DNA from: Anaerolineales bacterium
GTDB lineage: Bacteria; Chloroflexota; Anaerolineae; Anaerolineales; Villigracilaceae
Direction: 5' to 3'
Assembly: GCA_016789485.1 (NCBI GenBank)
Contig: JAEURE010000180.1
Location: forward strand, 1 to 6,018
DNA: 6,018 nt
The position numbers were made by a program, and so were the translations under genes. This document shows, piece after piece, positions 1 through 6,018 of this stretch (its first letter is position 1; every line of letters begins with the position of its first letter). The notes beneath the pieces were generated by a model. The model was given only the letters and a program-made list of their open reading frames with translations. It did no database searches and was not told the DNA's origin.

Positions 1-1087
1 TGCGGATGCGGGGCGCGGCCAGAGCAAGTGCGAGATCATCGGAAAGGGATGCGATTTTGCTGACACGGACTTTCGTCTTAATGCCGCCTCGGGACTCAAG
101 AAAAAGTGGCTCCACTCCGAACTGCGTGATCGAAGGTCCGCGGCTGATCGCAACTACCTGCGCTGGCGCGCCAAAGGAAGCACGAGTCTCTTCAATTAAT
201 CGCGCGCGCTGTTGAATGAAGTCTTCATTGATGGAAGGAGCGTTGCCAGAGTCGAGGATGTCGCTGACGTTGGGCAATGTCCAGTGGATGACGGTTGAAC
301 CGCTGGTTGTCCGCGTGGGTTGCACAGGGACTTCCGTGGTGGTGACCTTGGGCATGGCTGCGGGATCTATCGGGGTGAAATCCTCTGTCGTGGTGGAAGC
401 AGGAATCAGCGAAGGAGGAGGCGAGACGGGCTTGTTCAGCAGTTGCCGCAGTTTTACAGTCAACGGCGCGAGCCAGAAGAACAATTCCACAACAGGTTTA
501 TCCAGCATGACTGCAATTCCGAGAATCAACCAGGCAAGCAAGGCGATGAATGTGCCTCCGCCGCCCAGCCCCGCCCAAAGGATGCGTTGGAAGAGACCGC
601 CAAAATAACCGCCGCCTGAACCAGTCAGGGCAACAGCTTCGGCGGTTTCTGCTGTGGCGATCAATGAATGCAGGACGGTGAGAAGCCAGAAAAACAGGAT
701 GACACTGCCGACGGCACTTTCAACGGAGAGCGGCGGAATGCGTTCGATCTTGCGGAAGACAAGCCATAGCCCGAAGACCAGCAGACCAAGCGGAAGAATG
801 TAAACACCCCAGCCGAAAATTTGCGAAAGAAAAAATATGGCGCCGCCCACGATGGCGGAGCGGTTTGAGGAGATCAGACCCAATAAAATGATGATGCCAG
901 CTAGAGCAAGCCCGATTCCGACGACATCCAGTTTGCGCTCGGCGGAGAGCTTCTCCCACCATGAAGATTCCCTGACAGAATGCGGAGCATGTTTCGTGCG
1001 GGGCGCTTCTCCTTTTTTGGGAGGAAGTGTTTTGCCCGCAGGTTTTGTATTTTTCTTGGGGGGAGTGGACGGTTTAAGAAGCGGCAT
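1..1087 (-). CDS. ftsK: DNA translocase FtsK/SpoIIIE, N-terminal part (gene runs off the left edge)
   Basis: Membrane-anchored ATP-dependent DNA pump that clears and resolves chromosome ends at the division septum. The reverse strand reads open for 362 codons from ATG at 1087 to the window edge. In order: a basic, Pro/Lys-rich cytoplasmic tail (residues 1-45); about four hydrophobic membrane spans (roughly 53-74, 88-111, 124-144, 176-196); a short Pro/Thr-rich linker (about 218-285); then the start of the FtsK alpha domain. That last part carries typical family sequence: RARLIEETRASFGAPAQVV, the RGPSITQFGVEP stretch, and KVRVSKIASLSDDLALALAA. The Walker A/B motor and gamma domain are not in the window. 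The linker is short compared with E. coli FtsK and more like SpoIIIE-type proteins. ATG at 1087 is the first possible start downstream of the promoter: the frame upstream has no ATG, GTG or TTG up to the -10 element. No Shine-Dalgarno sequence precedes it. It diverges from rnz. Confidence 0.93.
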   Translation of the reverse strand, partial: MPLLKPSTPPKKNTKPAGKTLPPKKGEAPRTKHAPHSVRESSWWEKLSAERKLDVVGIGLALAGIIILLGLISSNRSAIVGGAIFFLSQIFGWGVYILPLGLLVFGLWLVFRKIERIPPLSVESAVGSVILFFWLLTVLHSLIATAETAEAVALTGSGGGYFGGLFQRILWAGLGGGGTFIALLAWLILGIAVMLDKPVVELFFWLAPLTVKLRQLLNKPVSPPPSLIPASTTTEDFTPIDPAAMPKVTTTEVPVQPTRTTSGSTVIHWTLPNVSDILDSGNAPSINEDFIQQRARLIEETRASFGAPAQVVAISRGPSITQFGVEPLFLESRGGIKTKVRVSKIASLSDDLALALAAPRIR

Positions 1088-1172
1088 GAATTCAAAGGAG
1101 AAATGATGAGAAGGAAGGATGAATTTTCGTGAAGCACCAAACGTTATTTCATCGCTTGTAATTCCAAAAAAG

Positions 1173-1181
1173 ATTATAGCA
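1173..1181 (-). promoter_or_regulatory. Extended -10 promoter for ftsK
   Basis: On the reverse strand the sequence TGCTATAAT is an exact match to the extended -10 consensus TGnTATAAT (TATAAT occupies 1178 to 1173). The hexamer 17 nt upstream (1201-1196, CAAAGA) is a poor -35, as is usual for extended -10 promoters. Transcription would begin near 1166, giving a leader of about 80 nt before the ftsK ATG at 1087. The leader has no Shine-Dalgarno sequence. It carries a pyrimidine-rich tract (about 1092-1120), which could help ribosome loading through protein S1; that role is inference. Confidence 0.6.
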
Positions 1182-1251
1182 CAAATGGTCTGTTTTCTTT
1201 GAGGTACAATTGCAGGGCTTTTGGCTTTTAAAAAATCTTTGCCGCAGAGTT

Positions 1252-1257
1252 TATAGT
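1252..1257 (+). promoter_or_regulatory. Candidate -10 element for the rnz-pfkA operon
   Basis: TATAGT matches 5 of 6 bases of the -10 consensus and lies 60 nt upstream of the rnz TTG. No good -35 is present at the expected spacing, only an A-run; TTTAAA sits 19 nt away. An alternative, TAGACT at 1274-1279, matches 4 of 6. The promoter must lie between 1088 and 1316 because ftsK diverges there, but which hexamer is used cannot be decided from sequence alone. Confidence 0.25.
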
Positions 1258-1304
1258 GACTTCGACTATTTTTTAGACTCAATTTTCTTTGTGGCTGGTT
1301 TGGC

Positions 1305-1309
1305 AAGGA
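1305..1309 (+). promoter_or_regulatory. Ribosome binding site that fixes the rnz TTG start
   Basis: AAGGA lies 7 nt before the TTG at 1317, an ideal spacing. The same frame has no ATG or GTG between this point and the upstream in-frame stop TGA at 1257-1259. The first beta-strand and the LGTSASAP loop of the metallo-beta-lactamase fold begin immediately after the TTG, so a later start would remove essential structure. Confidence 0.65.
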
Positions 1310-1316
1310 CTTCACT

Positions 1317-2237
1317 TTGTTCGAAATTCTTTTTCTTGGCACATCTGCATCCGCGCCTTCTGCAAACCGCGGGCTTTCGGGGCTAATCGTTTCTCATAAC
1401 GAGCATCGCTTTCTGGTGGATTGCGGTGAAGGCACACAGCGGCAGATCCTTCAGTCCGGCATCGGATTCAAACGCATCACCCGCATTCTGCTGACCCACG
1501 GGCATCTTGACCACATCCTTGGGTTGGGCGGTCTGCTTTCCACGCTTTTAAGATGGGAAGCCATTGATGAACTTGAAATATTCGGCGGAAAATCCACGCT
1601 GGAGCGCGTGCGCACGCTTCTTTATGATGTAGTGCTGCGCGGCAACCAGCCTCCCATGCCATTGAAATTAACCGAGATCAAACCTGGTATTGTTTTTGAA
1701 GCCGATGATTTTACAGTGACCGCGTTTCCAGTTACGCATAAGGGACCGGATTGTCTGGGATATTTGTTTGAAGAAAAAGCGCGCCGTCCATTTTTGGCGG
1801 CAAAGGCGGATGAACTTGGAGTCCCGTTCGGTCCCGAACGCCGTGACCTGGTGGCCGGCAAAGAGATCATTCTGTCTGATGGAAAACGCATCTCTCCAGA
1901 CGATGTGCTGGGTGACTGGGAAAAGGGCAGTAAACTCGTCGTTGTGGGGGATACGGGTAGAACCGATAACCTGCTCGAGGTCTGTAAAGAAGCGGATGCA
2001 GTTGTGATCGAGTCCACATATTTGGATGAAGAAGAAGATATGGCGAAGCAGTTCTCGCATCTCACAGCTCGCATGGGCGCGGAACTGGCGCTAAAAGCAG
2101 GGGTTAAAAAACTAATTCTTACTCATATTTCGCGCCGCTATCGCGGAAAAGACGTGCTTGCAGAAGCGCAGACCGTTTTTCCGAATGTGGTGGTGGCACG
2201 CGATTTTGATAATTTTCAAGTCAAGAGAGAAACTTAA
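1317..2237 (+). CDS. rnz: Ribonuclease Z (tRNA 3' endonuclease, short form)
   Basis: Zinc-dependent endonuclease of the metallo-beta-lactamase fold. It cuts precursor tRNAs after the discriminator base so that the CCA end can be added or exposed; it acts in the cytoplasm as a dimer. At 306 residues it has the normal length of the bacterial short form. Visible motifs: strand 1 with LGTSASAP (7-14); VDCGEGTQRQ (34-43); the HxHxDH zinc motif HGHLDH (H61, H63, D65, H66), where D65 is the expected general acid/base; H141 in PVTHKG; the flexible-arm (exosite) segment about residues 163-198 with GVPFGP and SPDDVLG; GDT with zinc-bridging D212; SHLTAR with H248; and LTHISRRY with H270. All expected metal ligands are present. 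The exosite reads GPERRDLVAG where many family members have GPLYGKL, a modest divergence. It starts with TTG behind a good Shine-Dalgarno site. Its TAA stop lies 3 nt before pfkA, so the two are probably co-transcribed. Confidence 0.95.
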   Translation: MFEILFLGTSASAPSANRGLSGLIVSHNEHRFLVDCGEGTQRQILQSGIGFKRITRILLTHGHLDHILGLGGLLSTLLRWEAIDELEIFGGKSTLERVRTLLYDVVLRGNQPPMPLKLTEIKPGIVFEADDFTVTAFPVTHKGPDCLGYLFEEKARRPFLAAKADELGVPFGPERRDLVAGKEIILSDGKRISPDDVLGDWEKGSKLVVVGDTGRTDNLLEVCKEADAVVIESTYLDEEEDMAKQFSHLTARMGAELALKAGVKKLILTHISRRYRGKDVLAEAQTVFPNVVVARDFDNFQVKRET

Positions 2238-2240
2238 GAA

Positions 2241-3215
2241 ATGGCAGATAAATTTACGATTGGTATTCTTACATCCGGCGGGGATGCGCCCGGTATGAAT
2301 GCGGCCATCCGCGCTGTGGTGCGGACTGCGCTGGCAAATAACATGGACGTGATCGGTGTGATGCACGGGTATGAAGGCTTGCTCAACGGCGAATTCAAGC
2401 CGATGGGTCCGCGTGATGTCGGCGGAATTTTGCAGCGCGGCGGGACGGTCTTGCAGACAAGCAGAAGCAAACGTTTCATGGAGCCGTCCGGTCAGCGGGA
2501 CGCCATCCGTAAGATGAACGAAGCAGGCATGGATGCGTTGATCGTCATCGGCGGCGAAGGTTCCATGAATGGCGCATACGCCTTGTCACAGCAGAATATA
2601 AAAGTGATTGGTATTCCCGGCAGTATCGATAACGATATTTGGGGCACAAACATTGCCATTGGCACAGATACAGCCATGAATACAATCATGGAGGCGGTGG
2701 ATAAGCTTCGCGATACCGCTTCATCGCATCAACGCGCGTTTTTGGTGGAGACGATGGGACGCAACAGCGGCTATCTTGCTGTGATGGCGGCAATCGTCTG
2801 CGGCGCGGAAGTGGCGCTCATTCCCGAAATGCCTATCACAGCCGACGAAGTGGCTGTAGTGGTTGAGGAAGCTTACAAACGCGGCAAGACTCATGCCATC
2901 ATCATTAATGCGGAAGGCTCAGGCGTCCGCACTACGGATCTGGCGCAGCGCATTGATGATTTGGATGTCGGTTTCAAAACCCGCATGACCATTCTGGGTC
3001 ACATCCAGCGCGGCGGTTCGCCCACCGCGTATGATCGTCTGCTGGCATCCCGCATGGGAGTCAAAGCTGTGGAAGCGTTGGTGGAAGGCACACATGGCAT
3101 GATGACCGGGCTCAAAGGCAAAGGCGTGGATTTCGTTCCGCTGCAGGATGTCATCAGCAATAAACGCAAGGTCAATATGGAATACTTCCACATGGCCAAA
3201 GTGTTGGCGAGATAA
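2241..3215 (+). CDS. pfkA: ATP-type 6-phosphofructokinase
   Basis: Phosphorylates fructose 6-phosphate to fructose 1,6-bisphosphate, the committed step of glycolysis, as a cytoplasmic tetramer. The length of 324 residues is normal for the bacterial PfkA group. Visible motifs: SGGDAPGMN nucleotide loop (12-20); TSRSKRF (73-79) at the phosphate-binding arginine; GGEGS (104-108); PGSIDND (126-132) with catalytic D130 (E. coli D127); R165; MGRNSG (172-177); AEG with E225; R248; and LGHIQRGGSP (252-261) with H254 and R257, the fructose 6-phosphate site. G107 and G127 occupy the two positions where PPi-dependent enzymes usually carry Asp and Lys, so ATP is the predicted donor. The Mg-site Asp of E. 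coli (D103) is Glu here (E106), as also occurs in actinobacterial enzymes. E190 and K216 match E. coli effector-site residues, so allosteric control is possible. ATG lies 3 nt after the rnz stop with only a weak purine-rich site (AGAGAG, 2224-2229), consistent with translation following rnz. A strong terminator follows. Confidence 0.96.
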   Translation: MADKFTIGILTSGGDAPGMNAAIRAVVRTALANNMDVIGVMHGYEGLLNGEFKPMGPRDVGGILQRGGTVLQTSRSKRFMEPSGQRDAIRKMNEAGMDALIVIGGEGSMNGAYALSQQNIKVIGIPGSIDNDIWGTNIAIGTDTAMNTIMEAVDKLRDTASSHQRAFLVETMGRNSGYLAVMAAIVCGAEVALIPEMPITADEVAVVVEEAYKRGKTHAIIINAEGSGVRTTDLAQRIDDLDVGFKTRMTILGHIQRGGSPTAYDRLLASRMGVKAVEALVEGTHGMMTGLKGKGVDFVPLQDVISNKRKVNMEYFHMAKVLAR

Positions 3216-3236
3216 GTTTGTATTGACTGGCATGTT

Positions 3237-3275
3237 AAAAAAGCAGAGGCAGATGATTCTGCCTCTGCTTTTTTT
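3237..3275. terminator. Bidirectional intrinsic terminator between convergent genes
   Basis: A perfect 12-bp inverted repeat, AGCAGAGGCAGA (3242-3253) and TCTGCCTCTGCT (3258-3269), encloses a TGAT tetraloop. An A-run lies on the left (3237-3242) and a T-run on the right (3269-3275), so the hairpin plus U-tract works when read from either side. It lies 21 nt past the pfkA stop on the plus strand. On the minus strand it begins 11 nt past the stop of the PBP homologue. Confidence 0.95.
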
Positions 3276-3286
3276 CAACAAAAACC

Positions 3287-5806
3287 TTACTTTATTGTTA
3301 CCTGGATCACAGCCGTATCCACCAATTGACCGTCCCTCACAACCACCAATTGCACTGCATACAAGCCGCTTAATTCTGTCGTGTCCCATTCTGCAAGGAC
3401 GTCATTTACGACTGGCACATTGCCATCTGAACCCAGTTGAAGCCATTCCTGCGGATTCAATCCCTTGCCGACCTGTACACGATAATATAAAAATCCATCT
3501 CCTGAAGCCGTGCCGATAATTTTCACAACCCCGTTCACATCCGCAAACAACTGCGGAGAAGTGATATTTGCGACGGGATTGATCGGCGGCGCTTGAATGG
3601 CATCATACGAAGTTGGTGGAATGTCGAGGTTTGTGCTTTGTGCCCAGTCCCGCGCACTTTCAGGGATGAGCATGTACACACGATTATCAATTAATGCGGG
3701 CGGGGTGAACACTGTGGCAAGCAACCCTGTTTCGCGGTTGACAGAAAACTCGCGGAACATTGTATCTGGCTGAGTTGGTTCGCTTCCGTTCAGGAAAACT
3801 TCGGTTACCAAATTCGGGCATTCACGCGTGGGCAGCATTCCCGATGGATCGCAGACGGTTATCGTACTCACTCCCAATGGAGCGGTCCAGCCATTTGGCG
3901 GGGTGTTTTCAGAAACGATCTGCATCAATGCATTCCACAGCACAGCAGGGAAACGCGGCGTGACGGAGTCACTCGCATCGCGGCCGCGTACGCCCGTCCA
4001 CGTGACCACCAAATGCGAGGGCGTGAACCCAACCACCCATGCATCGCGGCCATTAGCTGTTTGCCCGACCTTCACGCCTGCAGGTCTGCCGATTTCCAGC
4101 GCATTCGATCTGCCAAGCGAATCCCAACGCGCGGGCTCATCGCTTAACACGTTAGCCATCAAATACGCCATTGCAGATGTTACGATCGTTTGTGCTTTTG
4201 GCAATGACCAATCCAATAGCACGGAACGATCTGCACTTTCCACACGCAGCACGCTGACAGGTAAAAATTCATCGTCCACGCTTTGGCCAAAATAAACGCC
4301 TTGCGTTCCAAAGACTCCATACGCGCCTGCAAGCTCAAGCATCGAAACATCGGAATTTAATTCAATGCCAAACGACGAGGCGATCTTCGCCACGTTCTCG
4401 ATTCCCATTTGCTTTTTCAACGTTTCCACAGGCACTTGATAATCATTTGCCAGTGCCATTCGCAATCGCATCGGTCCGTGATATTGGCCGTCAAAGTTTT
4501 GGATATTTTCGCTGCCGGGGATGTCCCATGTTAATGAAGCTGGACTCAAGCCTCGAGTGAATCCCGTCAGATAGACAAACGCATCCAAACTGGACCCGGG
4601 CCTGTGCGCGCTTGCAAGGGGAGTTTCCACGCCTTGATTTGTCTCGCCAACCATCGCCAATACCTGACCCGTATTCGGGTCAAGGATCAACGCGCTTGCT
4701 GACGAATCTGCAAAAGTCACAGCAGGCGGCAGGGACGGCAGCACCCGCGCCGTGTCGCAATCCGTTTCGGGTGTGGGCAGCCCGGCCATGCGCGTTGCAT
4801 AGACTTCGGTGACACAAGCCGCTTTCTTTTGCAGGTCATAATCCAGCGTAGTGATGATCGTCATGCCGCCGCGCTCGATTCGTTCGCGGGGAATCTGCGA
4901 GTCTAATTGGGTGAGGACCAGGTTCACGAAAGCAGGAGCAATTTTCGGCGCAGGGAGAGGCGTGGACTCCATCTTCGGAGTCTCTGCCAATGCAAGCGCT
5001 GTTGCTTCGTTGCTAACCAAGCCAAGCCCATTCAAAATATAGATCGTTTCGCGCCCGCGCTGCAGCGCTACTTGCGGCGCATCCAACGGATTGAGCGCAG
5101 GCGTTTCGCTTGTCGCCGCAAGAATGGCAGACTCGGCGAGGGTCAGTTCATCGGCGGGTTTGCCGAAATAAAGTTGAGATGCAGCGTCCACGCCATAGGC
5201 ATGGTTGCCGAAATTCGCGCTGTTCAAATACCACTCGATGATCTGTGTGCGCCCAAATTGCGCGGTGACCTGCGCGGCAAGGATGCGCTCGCGAATGGCG
5301 CGGCGCATGGATGGCGGCTCGTTGTAAAGAATCAAATTGCTGACCAAACGCTGCGCGATGGTGGGATGAAGCTCAGGATCGTTGATGCCTTGAACGGCAT
5401 AGCCTGAATGCAAGTTGAACTGCGGATCGGCTACGGCGATGACAGCATTGACAAGGTTTGCAGGAACGTGCTGCGGATTTTGCGGGTTGACAGGAATATA
5501 ACGACGCGGCGAGTCATTCGGTGCAAAGGTGGCAAGCACTTGCAATCCGCTGCGGTCATAAATGCGTGTGGGTTGCAGCAGCAAGCCATCCGGTGGATTT
5601 AACAGCCGCGGCAAAATTTCAGTAGATGGAAGTTCACGCGTGACATCCGCATATGCGAATGCGCCGAGGATGATTCCTGCCGCGAGCAGAAGCAATAGAA
5701 CGATTCCCCCGCTGATGATCGCACCGCGCAAACGCGCCGATTGATTGTTTTGCTTTTCAAGACGGCGTTCACGACGGGCGCGCAGAATGGGAAGTGTGGA
5801 GGGCAT
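3287..5806 (-). CDS. Class A penicillin-binding protein homologue with degenerate active sites (probable pseudoenzyme)
   Basis: Membrane-anchored envelope protein with class A PBP architecture: an Arg-rich cytoplasmic tail (1-27), one membrane span (about 29-53), a GT51 glycosyltransferase-like domain (about 79-265), a transpeptidase-like domain (about 366-610), and a tail containing a BiPBP_C/Ig-like beta domain (about 744-839). Fold-level sequence is well kept: IIEWYLN (189-195), AYGVDAA (203-209), YFGKPADELTLAESAILA (213-230), FDGQYHGP (438-445), GRDAWVVGFTP (586-596). The catalytic residues are not. The GT51 glutamate of the EDxxFxxH motif is Ala (A126-D127, codon 5429-5431), although E173 in the RxxxE motif remains. 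SxxK reads SSLD (405-408), SxN reads DYQ (455-457) and KTG reads KVG (579-581). The only cysteines, C331/C350 and C652/C663, form two close pairs suited to disulfides. ATG at 5806 is the first start after an in-frame TAA at 5816-5818. The frame is intact with no frameshift. Peptidoglycan synthesis by this protein looks unlikely; a scaffolding or sensing role is inference. Confidence 0.9.
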   Translation of the reverse strand: MPSTLPILRARRERRLEKQNNQSARLRGAIISGGIVLLLLLAAGIILGAFAYADVTRELPSTEILPRLLNPPDGLLLQPTRIYDRSGLQVLATFAPNDSPRRYIPVNPQNPQHVPANLVNAVIAVADPQFNLHSGYAVQGINDPELHPTIAQRLVSNLILYNEPPSMRRAIRERILAAQVTAQFGRTQIIEWYLNSANFGNHAYGVDAASQLYFGKPADELTLAESAILAATSETPALNPLDAPQVALQRGRETIYILNGLGLVSNEATALALAETPKMESTPLPAPKIAPAFVNLVLTQLDSQIPRERIERGGMTIITTLDYDLQKKAACVTEVYATRMAGLPTPETDCDTARVLPSLPPAVTFADSSASALILDPNTGQVLAMVGETNQGVETPLASAHRPGSSLDAFVYLTGFTRGLSPASLTWDIPGSENIQNFDGQYHGPMRLRMALANDYQVPVETLKKQMGIENVAKIASSFGIELNSDVSMLELAGAYGVFGTQGVYFGQSVDDEFLPVSVLRVESADRSVLLDWSLPKAQTIVTSAMAYLMANVLSDEPARWDSLGRSNALEIGRPAGVKVGQTANGRDAWVVGFTPSHLVVTWTGVRGRDASDSVTPRFPAVLWNALMQIVSENTPPNGWTAPLGVSTITVCDPSGMLPTRECPNLVTEVFLNGSEPTQPDTMFREFSVNRETGLLATVFTPPALIDNRVYMLIPESARDWAQSTNLDIPPTSYDAIQAPPINPVANITSPQLFADVNGVVKIIGTASGDGFLYYRVQVGKGLNPQEWLQLGSDGNVPVVNDVLAEWDTTELSGLYAVQLVVVRDGQLVDTAVIQVTIK

Positions 5807-5812
5807 GGCTCT

Positions 5813-5818
5813 ATTTTA
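5813..5818 (-). promoter_or_regulatory. -10 element placed for leaderless transcription of the PBP homologue
   Basis: On the reverse strand TAAAAT (5 of 6 to TATAAT, and fitting TAnnnT) ends exactly 6 nt before the ATG at 5806. Transcription would then start at or next to the A of the ATG. No convincing -35 is seen (TCCCTA at 17-bp spacing) and there is no Shine-Dalgarno sequence, only a weak AGAG. Its TAA doubles as the in-frame stop bounding the reading frame. A leaderless mRNA is inference from spacing. Confidence 0.4.
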
Positions 5819-5887
5819 CAGAGTATCGCCTGATTTAGGGAAAAGGAATTTCAGTGTGGCGCGTTGGATTTTCCTATATTCTTCTAA

Positions 5888-5916
5888 TGAACATTTTTCT
5901 TTTGGAATGCTAAAAT
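5888..5916 (+). promoter_or_regulatory. Rightward promoter diverging from the PBP homologue
   Basis: TGAACA (5888-5893, 4 of 6 to the -35 consensus), a 17-bp spacer, and TAAAAT (5911-5916) preceded by TGC make an extended -10 promoter pointing right. The expected start point is about 5923, which coincides with an ATG. It probably serves a gene or RNA that lies mostly beyond the right edge. Confidence 0.45.
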
Positions 5917-5922
5917 AATCTC

Positions 5923-5949
5923 ATGAACACAACCCGTCCCCCCTGCTAA
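5923..5949 (+). other. Eight-codon mini-ORF at the predicted transcription start (unrecognised)
   Basis: An ATG 6 nt behind the TAAAAT element opens a frame reading MNTTRPPC and then TAA. There is no Shine-Dalgarno sequence, so it would be translated only if the transcript is leaderless. It could be a leader peptide, or a chance ATG. A run of six C (5938-5943) lies inside, but adding or removing one C does not open a longer frame: both shifted frames stop within about 35 nt. The rest of the right edge up to 6018 holds no recognisable coding sequence. Confidence 0.2.
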
Positions 5950-5959
5950 GCCTTAATCC

Positions 5960-5984
5960 ACGAAGCCCTACGGGCTGATTTCGT
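5960..5984. repeat. Imperfect inverted repeat (hairpin) near the right edge
   Basis: Inner stem AGCCC (5964-5968) pairs with GGGCT (5972-5976) around a TAC loop. Outer arms ACGA (5960-5963) and TCGT (5981-5984) pair across a 4-nt bulge. It is not followed by a T-run, so a simple intrinsic terminator is unlikely. It may be one copy of an intergenic palindromic repeat or a structured leader; only one copy is present here, so repetition cannot be shown. Confidence 0.4.
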
Positions 5985-6018
5985 ATTCTCCTTAATTCGT
6001 AAAAAACCTACACCCGAT

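Follow-up and report, generated by a model that had tools for sequence, protein, structure and literature searches.

Introduction

Class A penicillin-binding proteins (PBPs) of the PBP1a, PBP1b and PBP2 type have been studied as enzymes and as drug targets, and any work that they do free of catalysis is hard to separate where the enzyme itself is needed. Catalysis in their glycosyltransferase (GT51) domain depends on a glutamate, E233 in Escherichia coli PBP1b (EcPBP1b), and on the RKxxE motif, while SxxK, SxN and KTG are the catalytic motifs of PBPs. In this work we describe a gene at positions 3287..5806 (minus strand) of a 6,018-nucleotide stretch of DNA, called the window throughout, from an Anaerolineales bacterium of the Chloroflexota (assembly GCA_016789485.1, contig JAEURE010000180.1, positions 1 to 6,018). 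Its product, referred to here as the pseudo-PBP, resembles class A PBPs in domain order, fold and sequence homology, and differs from them in that catalytic residues of both domains have been replaced and a loop of the glycosyltransferase domain is shorter. We argue that it is probably a non-catalytic scaffold or regulator of active wall synthases, a role read from sequence comparison.

Pseudoenzymes are already known as a class. A precedent for the way in which such a protein might work is PBP3 of Clostridioides difficile, which is reported to stimulate a catalytically active class A PBP although its own catalysis is not needed, its presence in the PBP1 divisome counting rather than its activity (PMC12539705). 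PBP3 is a class B protein whose catalysis was reported to be dispensable for this role (PMC12539705), whereas in the pseudo-PBP the catalytic residues themselves are gone across a clade. Among the titles and opening lines of abstracts of the open-licence PubMed Central literature on inactive or non-catalytic PBPs, pseudoenzymes and Chloroflexota cell walls, none was found to describe a class A PBP with both domains dead. Closer by descent are canonical orthologues of the same subfamily from other Anaerolineae (for example L155, L163 and L206), which possess the same C-terminal module and of which L155 and L163 belong to the sister group; unlike the pseudo-PBP, they retain E233, RKxxE, SxxK, SxN and KTG.

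A first-pass annotation of the window, made from its letters alone, had proposed the loss of transpeptidase function in this gene. That part of the reading stands, while its scope was too narrow: the accompanying loss in GT51 was missed, and the loss is clade-wide rather than confined to this gene. As a full-length protein with both sites altered, kept across much of the order beside a canonical paralogue, the pseudo-PBP would represent a natural separation-of-function protein.

Active-site residues of the two catalytic domains

The gene starts with ATG and comprises 839 codons and a stop codon, with no internal stops, in agreement with the clean frame reported earlier. Its product matches PF00912 (GT51) at 97.7 bits against a cut-off of 27 and, C-terminal to it, PF00905 (transpeptidase) at 29.8 bits against a cut-off of 22.1 (residues 371-483), and a predicted structural model, a check that the first-pass annotation had proposed, matches class A PBP crystal structures at fold level over both domains. 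The protein is therefore a class A PBP by homology. Against the NCBIfam PBP1A family TIGR02074 it scores 250.5 bits, under the curated cut-off of 508.75, and so falls outside that family.

The transpeptidase domain, delimited by profile match, structure search and alignments, covers residues 366-640 (3887..4711, minus strand). With motif columns set by alignment to EcPBP1b (L196), the SxxK position reads S405-S-L-D408 (4583..4594), the SxN position D455-Y-Q457 (4436..4444) and the KTG position K579-V-G581 (4064..4072), all on the minus strand. These are the SSLD, DYQ and KVG segments singled out previously, and HMMER alignments to solved PBP1a chains likewise bring the SxxK and KTG segments onto the canonical motifs. 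The further statement that all three motifs are disabled needs qualification: the SxxK lysine and both the serine and asparagine of SxN are gone, while the SxxK serine is kept and KTG loses its threonine alone, retaining lysine and glycine. A search for an intact motif set elsewhere in the domain found none. K[ST]G occurs nowhere in the protein, the sole SxxK (SLPK, 534-537) lies within a modelled strand region off the active-site helix, and [SY]xN is represented in the domain by just two SEN triplets, at 432 and 632. The shortening noted after SxN was also recovered: the stretch from the SxN asparagine column as far as Ala495 counts 38 residues, whereas 78 canonical orthologues have a median of 51. 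A short stretch is usual in the window's own family, where 61 sequences give a median of 38 and a range of 37-53; in the order's 20 other dead-type orthologues the median is 51.5.

The GT51 domain, delimited by profile match and alignments, covers residues 75-260 (5027..5584, minus strand). In the alignment, Ala126 (5429..5431, minus strand) replaces the catalytic glutamate E233 of EcPBP1b and Ala170 (5297..5299, minus strand) replaces the RKxxE lysine (K287), with Glu173 (E290) kept; the Q271 and K274 columns hold Arg153 and Ser156, respectively. The GGSTITQQ region is shorter by about 10 residues, the D234-T267 spacing being 22 residues where canonical orthologues have a median of 32. Residues expected of a functional bifunctional class A PBP are thus replaced in each domain, and the classic residues that remain are Asp127, Phe130, His133, Arg169, Glu173, Ser405, Lys579 and Gly581. 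Both catalytic domains have accordingly lost catalytic residues, and we infer that glycosyltransfer, DD-transpeptidation and beta-lactam acylation would have been lost with them.

Distribution and phylogeny of the dead-type proteins

Among the best 120 of 2443 homologue hits, which include 119 proteins besides that of the window, all 119 carry Asp in place of the SxxK lysine and 118 carry Asp in place of the SxN serine, so that the conservation across orthologues which the first-pass annotation proposed to check is borne out among the matches listed. The recurrence of the same replacements in these relatives excludes chance or sequencing error. A related concern is that the motifs were mis-called or the gene is chimaeric through faulty assembly or alignment, given that the source genome is only 75% complete and divided into 477 contigs. 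We regard this as scarcely credible, since it is contradicted by independent genomes: the same state recurs across separately assembled genomes, two of them single-contig, and in a protein of Longilinea arvoryzae. At E <=0.001 and with paralogues included, the window's protein matches all but one of 121 relatives.

For a broader view we collected 173 orthologue-type sequences, comprising 93 from the order (the window and L087-L178) and 80 from across the class (L206-L285; matches from 80 of 199 genomes searched). By motif state 90 are dead-type and 83 canonical, the order alone accounting for 79 dead-type and 14 canonical sequences. The SxxK lysine is missing in 90/90 dead-type proteins, the SxN serine and asparagine in 89/90 (L238 keeps both) and the GT51 glutamate in 86/90 (kept in L150, L217, L249 and L250); KTG is intact in four (L135, L137, L146 and L159). 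As the set was picked by motif, loss within it is circular, while the identity of the replacing residues is not. L238, which retains SxN and the TG of KTG and lacks the SxxK lysine, the KTG lysine and the GT51 glutamate, may be an intermediate state.

Residues were tabulated for 81 dead-type proteins of the order (window's family included) and for two canonical groups, 49 orthologues and 18 paralogues, both of which have canonical residues at the tabulated positions, gaps apart. Glutamate at the E233 column is found in 1/81 dead-type proteins (L150) versus 46/46 canonical orthologues with a letter there, and the RKxxE lysine in 2 or 0 of 81, depending on which of two alignments is used, versus 48/48. 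Alanine takes these positions in 45 and 61 of the 81, respectively, with Asp127 kept in 73 and Glu173 in 65. In the transpeptidase domain the SxN serine column is Asp in 72/81, Lys579 is kept in 71 and Gly581 in 72, Ser405 is kept in 63 and replaced by Thr in 15, and position 408 is variable (Asp 48, Thr 15, Ala 6, Leu 5, others 7).

Asp455 and Lys579 occur together in 70/81 dead-type proteins, are both missing in eight and are split in three, a co-occurrence that fits a kept salt bridge yet tracks lineages and so offers no independent test. Together with Ser or Thr at position 405 in 78/81, it could also be read as a change of chemistry in which Ser405 and Asp455/Lys579 form a new active site, for example that of a hydrolase. 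The variability of position 408, the interchange of Ser405 with Thr and the lineage-bound pattern of the Asp-Lys pair all speak against such an enzyme, which we hold to be improbable.

Searching from a distant dead-type member, L152, returned at least 69 proteins. Those not already collected number 68 and divide into 10 canonical and 58 dead-type proteins, with three of the 58 (P0165, P0176 and P0177) keeping Glu at the E233 column. The protein of L. arvoryzae (Anaerolineaceae), a species in culture, is dead-type, its residues at the ten motif positions being N A M S S D L K I G against the canonical E K E S K S N K T G, which makes this bacterium a host suited to probing the non-catalytic role. 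Database names of dead-type proteins (transglycosylase domain-containing, penicillin-binding protein, membrane carboxypeptidase) illustrate that annotation alone may mislead on beta-lactam targets or on the capacity for wall synthesis.

In an 87-row tree the 46 dead-type rows make up one side of a branch (SH-aLRT, an approximate likelihood-ratio test, 99). Their neighbouring group consists of 14 canonical orthologues from families f3, f4, f10, f11 and f15 (support 99), and two canonical paralogue groups are placed elsewhere. Each of the 14 genomes with a canonical orthologue has one match at that level, its other matches being far lower-scoring and not placed on the tree. The dead-type proteins therefore form one supported clade within the order, and the loss is clade-wide and old rather than peculiar to this gene; on the simplest reading, the same gene was inactivated, rather than an extra copy having survived.

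Nine further dead or half-dead members of the subfamily lie outside the order, in families f33 (L249-L251), f46 (L217, L238, L252, L254 and L255) and f58 (L243). L217 and L238 group with canonical members of f46 in the tree, a placement suggestive of another, separate loss, even though an approximately unbiased (AU) test does not reject a single dead clade (p 0.098); we do not claim a single loss across the whole class. Support is lacking for the deep branches that link f33, f58 and three f46 dead-type sequences with the main dead clade, and long branches are involved.

Selection on the gene

Ratios of nonsynonymous to synonymous substitution (dN/dS) were calculated by the NG86 method, with domain bounds that are approximate for pairs without the window. 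Between the window's gene and a relative of 96% identity dN/dS is 0.077 (glycosyltransferase domain 0.047, transpeptidase domain 0.056, last 199 residues 0.049). Overall values are 0.073-0.148 in 11/11 dead-type pairs and 0.020-0.128 in seven canonical pairs, several of which have saturated dS. The highest domain value, 0.41, comes from one linker of 99 codons, and the expectation of dN/dS well below 1 is thus upheld in the pairs tested. Furthermore, the residues at the altered sites have been held through synonymous codon change: across the window's family (59 sequences), GAT encodes Asp455 in 51 and GAC in seven (one has Asn), and AAG encodes Lys579 in 34 and AAA in 25.

These results bear on the possibility that the gene is a decaying pseudogene of a redundant PBP. 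Such decay could account for the far greater divergence of members in f2, f5 and part of f12, and for irregularities in family f1, the window's own. An orthologue-level match is present in 49 of 52 f1 genomes that are at least 90% complete, leaving three near-complete genomes (G024, G044 and G072) without the gene; the reading of motifs covered 46 of these genomes (all except G014, G039 and G050), the G014 copy having an internal stop and that of G039 being split across two contigs, while the G002 and G016 copies are split over frames. However, the G014 stop is the only internal one among the matches listed, and decay is contradicted by the low dN/dS, the otherwise open frames, the codon turnover at the new residues and the single supported clade spanning many families, leaving this explanation very improbable. 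The comparisons show that the gene is under purifying selection. Canonical relatives do exist, and dN/dS gives no sign of relaxation alongside them, so the earlier suggestion of selection for a non-catalytic role is supported by dead motifs that are conserved in orthologues and by low dN/dS. With catalytic residues lost and the protein kept by selection, the pseudo-PBP has the features of a pseudoenzyme.

Redistribution of conservation and proposed role

The C-terminal class A PBP module of the protein, recognised by conservation analysis, covers residues 641-740 (3587..3886, minus strand; CDPSGxLPTxxCP, NRETGLLATVFTP) and precedes an immunoglobulin/fibronectin type III-like beta sandwich at residues 741-839 (3290..3586, minus strand). 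Residues 641-839 match no Pfam family at E 0.1, and their fold match is confined to the Ig-like half, a search by which the module itself was barely probed; the reading of the module as a known domain was dropped.

In 78 canonical orthologues the segments around SxxK, SxN, KTG and GGSTITQQ stand at the 96th-100th conservation percentile of their domains, and those around E233, K274 and RKxxE at the 54th-69th only. In a set of 14 dead-type sequences from outside the window's family the former drop to the 54th-87th percentile, with SxN highest, while the E233, K274 and RKxxE segments stand at the 53rd, 78th and 63rd, the last two showing no drop. The best-kept segments of this set, ETGLLATVFTP and VCDPSGMLPTR, both lie within the module. 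Mean column identity of the module exceeds that of the former catalytic domains by 0.165 in the 14 dead-type sequences (0.10 to 0.23 by a bootstrap over columns that ignores kinship by tree); for canonical sequences the same difference is negative, at -0.114 for 14 from the order and -0.106 for 64 from the class, as it is for the paralogue groups of seven (-0.21) and 11 sequences (-0.15). Outside the window's family, conservation has thus shifted from the transpeptidase motifs to the module, a further difference from class A PBPs.

An alternative would be a substrate sensor, in which the altered clefts would still take up lipid II or stem peptide, without turning it over, and would signal or buffer the supply of substrate. 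The retention of Asp127, Glu173, Ser405, Lys579 and Gly581 in most of the dead set could serve such binding, as could the standing of the old SxN segment (87th-88th percentile) and of the K274 segment in the dead set outside the family. Against it, the SxxK, KTG and GGSTITQQ segments fall to the 54th-68th percentile, and the glycosyltransferase cleft is without Lys at both the K274 and K287 columns and has lost about 10 loop residues; we therefore think a sensor unlikely.

The scaffold or regulator that we favour could operate as follows. The protein has a basic, cytoplasmic-type N-terminal tail (RARRERR), followed by a putative hydrophobic anchor that was read from the sequence at residues 31-56 (5639..5716, minus strand) and is spanned in the model by a single long helix (5-56). 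The tail and membrane helix would position the protein at the site of synthesis, where the pseudo-domains would serve as a rigid body, an Asp455-Lys579 salt bridge may fill the old cleft, and the module at 641-740 would offer a working surface through which the protein docks to an active PBP, a SEDS complex or the nascent wall. A wider and more tentative idea, which we consider possible though doubtful, is that Anaerolineales made two peptidoglycan synthases non-catalytic in the same cells, the class A PBP and a SEDS protein with a dead transpeptidase, and that both form or control the assembly of synthases, their transpeptidase folds being purely structural and the class A protein docking through its C-terminal module.

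The setting in the cell leaves room for such a role. A PF00912 search of 12 genomes with dead-type proteins (a 13th, G144, being a canonical control) found in each one dead-type member and one or two others, and 17/17 of the others are canonical at ten positions; two single-contig genomes have one dead-type and one canonical class A PBP each. SEDS proteins are present in 9/9 genomes searched and further transpeptidase-domain proteins in 8/8. Because canonical class A PBPs, SEDS proteins and other transpeptidase proteins co-occur with it, wall synthesis need not rest on the activities that the pseudo-PBP has lost.

Several points weigh against a scaffold or regulator. In the window's own family the shift towards the module is small (+0.058, interval touching 0, 61 sequences), and beside the column-wise nature of the bootstrap, L158, L173 and L175-L178 were excluded as too divergent (six of the 20 dead-type sequences of the order outside the family). 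The E233 and RKxxE segments are not top-ranked even in canonical proteins, and that of K274 did not fall. The GT51 glutamate survives in nine dead-type proteins, P0046 and P0049 of the 119 listed relatives among them, and KTG in P0176 among others, in addition to those given above. The persistence of Ser405 or Thr, Lys579 and Glu173 would permit binding or other chemistry, and the near-complete genomes without the gene indicate that it is not indispensable everywhere. The neighbourhood provides no partner either: the flanking FtsK, RNase Z and PfkA genes accompany only close relatives within the family, many loci having too little flank, and when flanking open reading frames from 75 loci were clustered, every other family was confined to 12 loci at most. 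The neighbourhood was therefore dropped as a functional clue.

Further observations

A second putative pseudo-PBP is a SEDS (FtsW/RodA) protein fused in frame with a transpeptidase-like domain, found in the window's own genome (contig C163; L007, 2-2017) and elsewhere (L346-L353). Its SxxK lysine and KTG are missing in 9/9 genomes aligned, and the SxN segment is missing or unrecognisable; in the own-genome copy the PF00905 match is limited to profile positions 1-45.

In family f2 (L175-L178) the GT51 and transpeptidase motifs are barely recognisable and Asp455 and Lys579 are both gone, the frames being open; L175, the one displayed, keeps the C-terminal module. One genome (G047:C6:5992-6549) has, alongside the full gene, an extra 202-codon piece with a 73% match to residues 4-189 of the dead PBP. 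Among the solved structures, PDB 7u4h is entered under the name of PBP1a from Chlamydia trachomatis, which belongs to a group not known to have class A PBPs; its stated source may be an error.

Finally, positions 3237-3275 of the window, read by eye, form a perfect 10-bp hairpin between an A run and a T run. It separates the PfkA and PBP genes, which converge on it, in the manner expected of a terminator that works in both directions.
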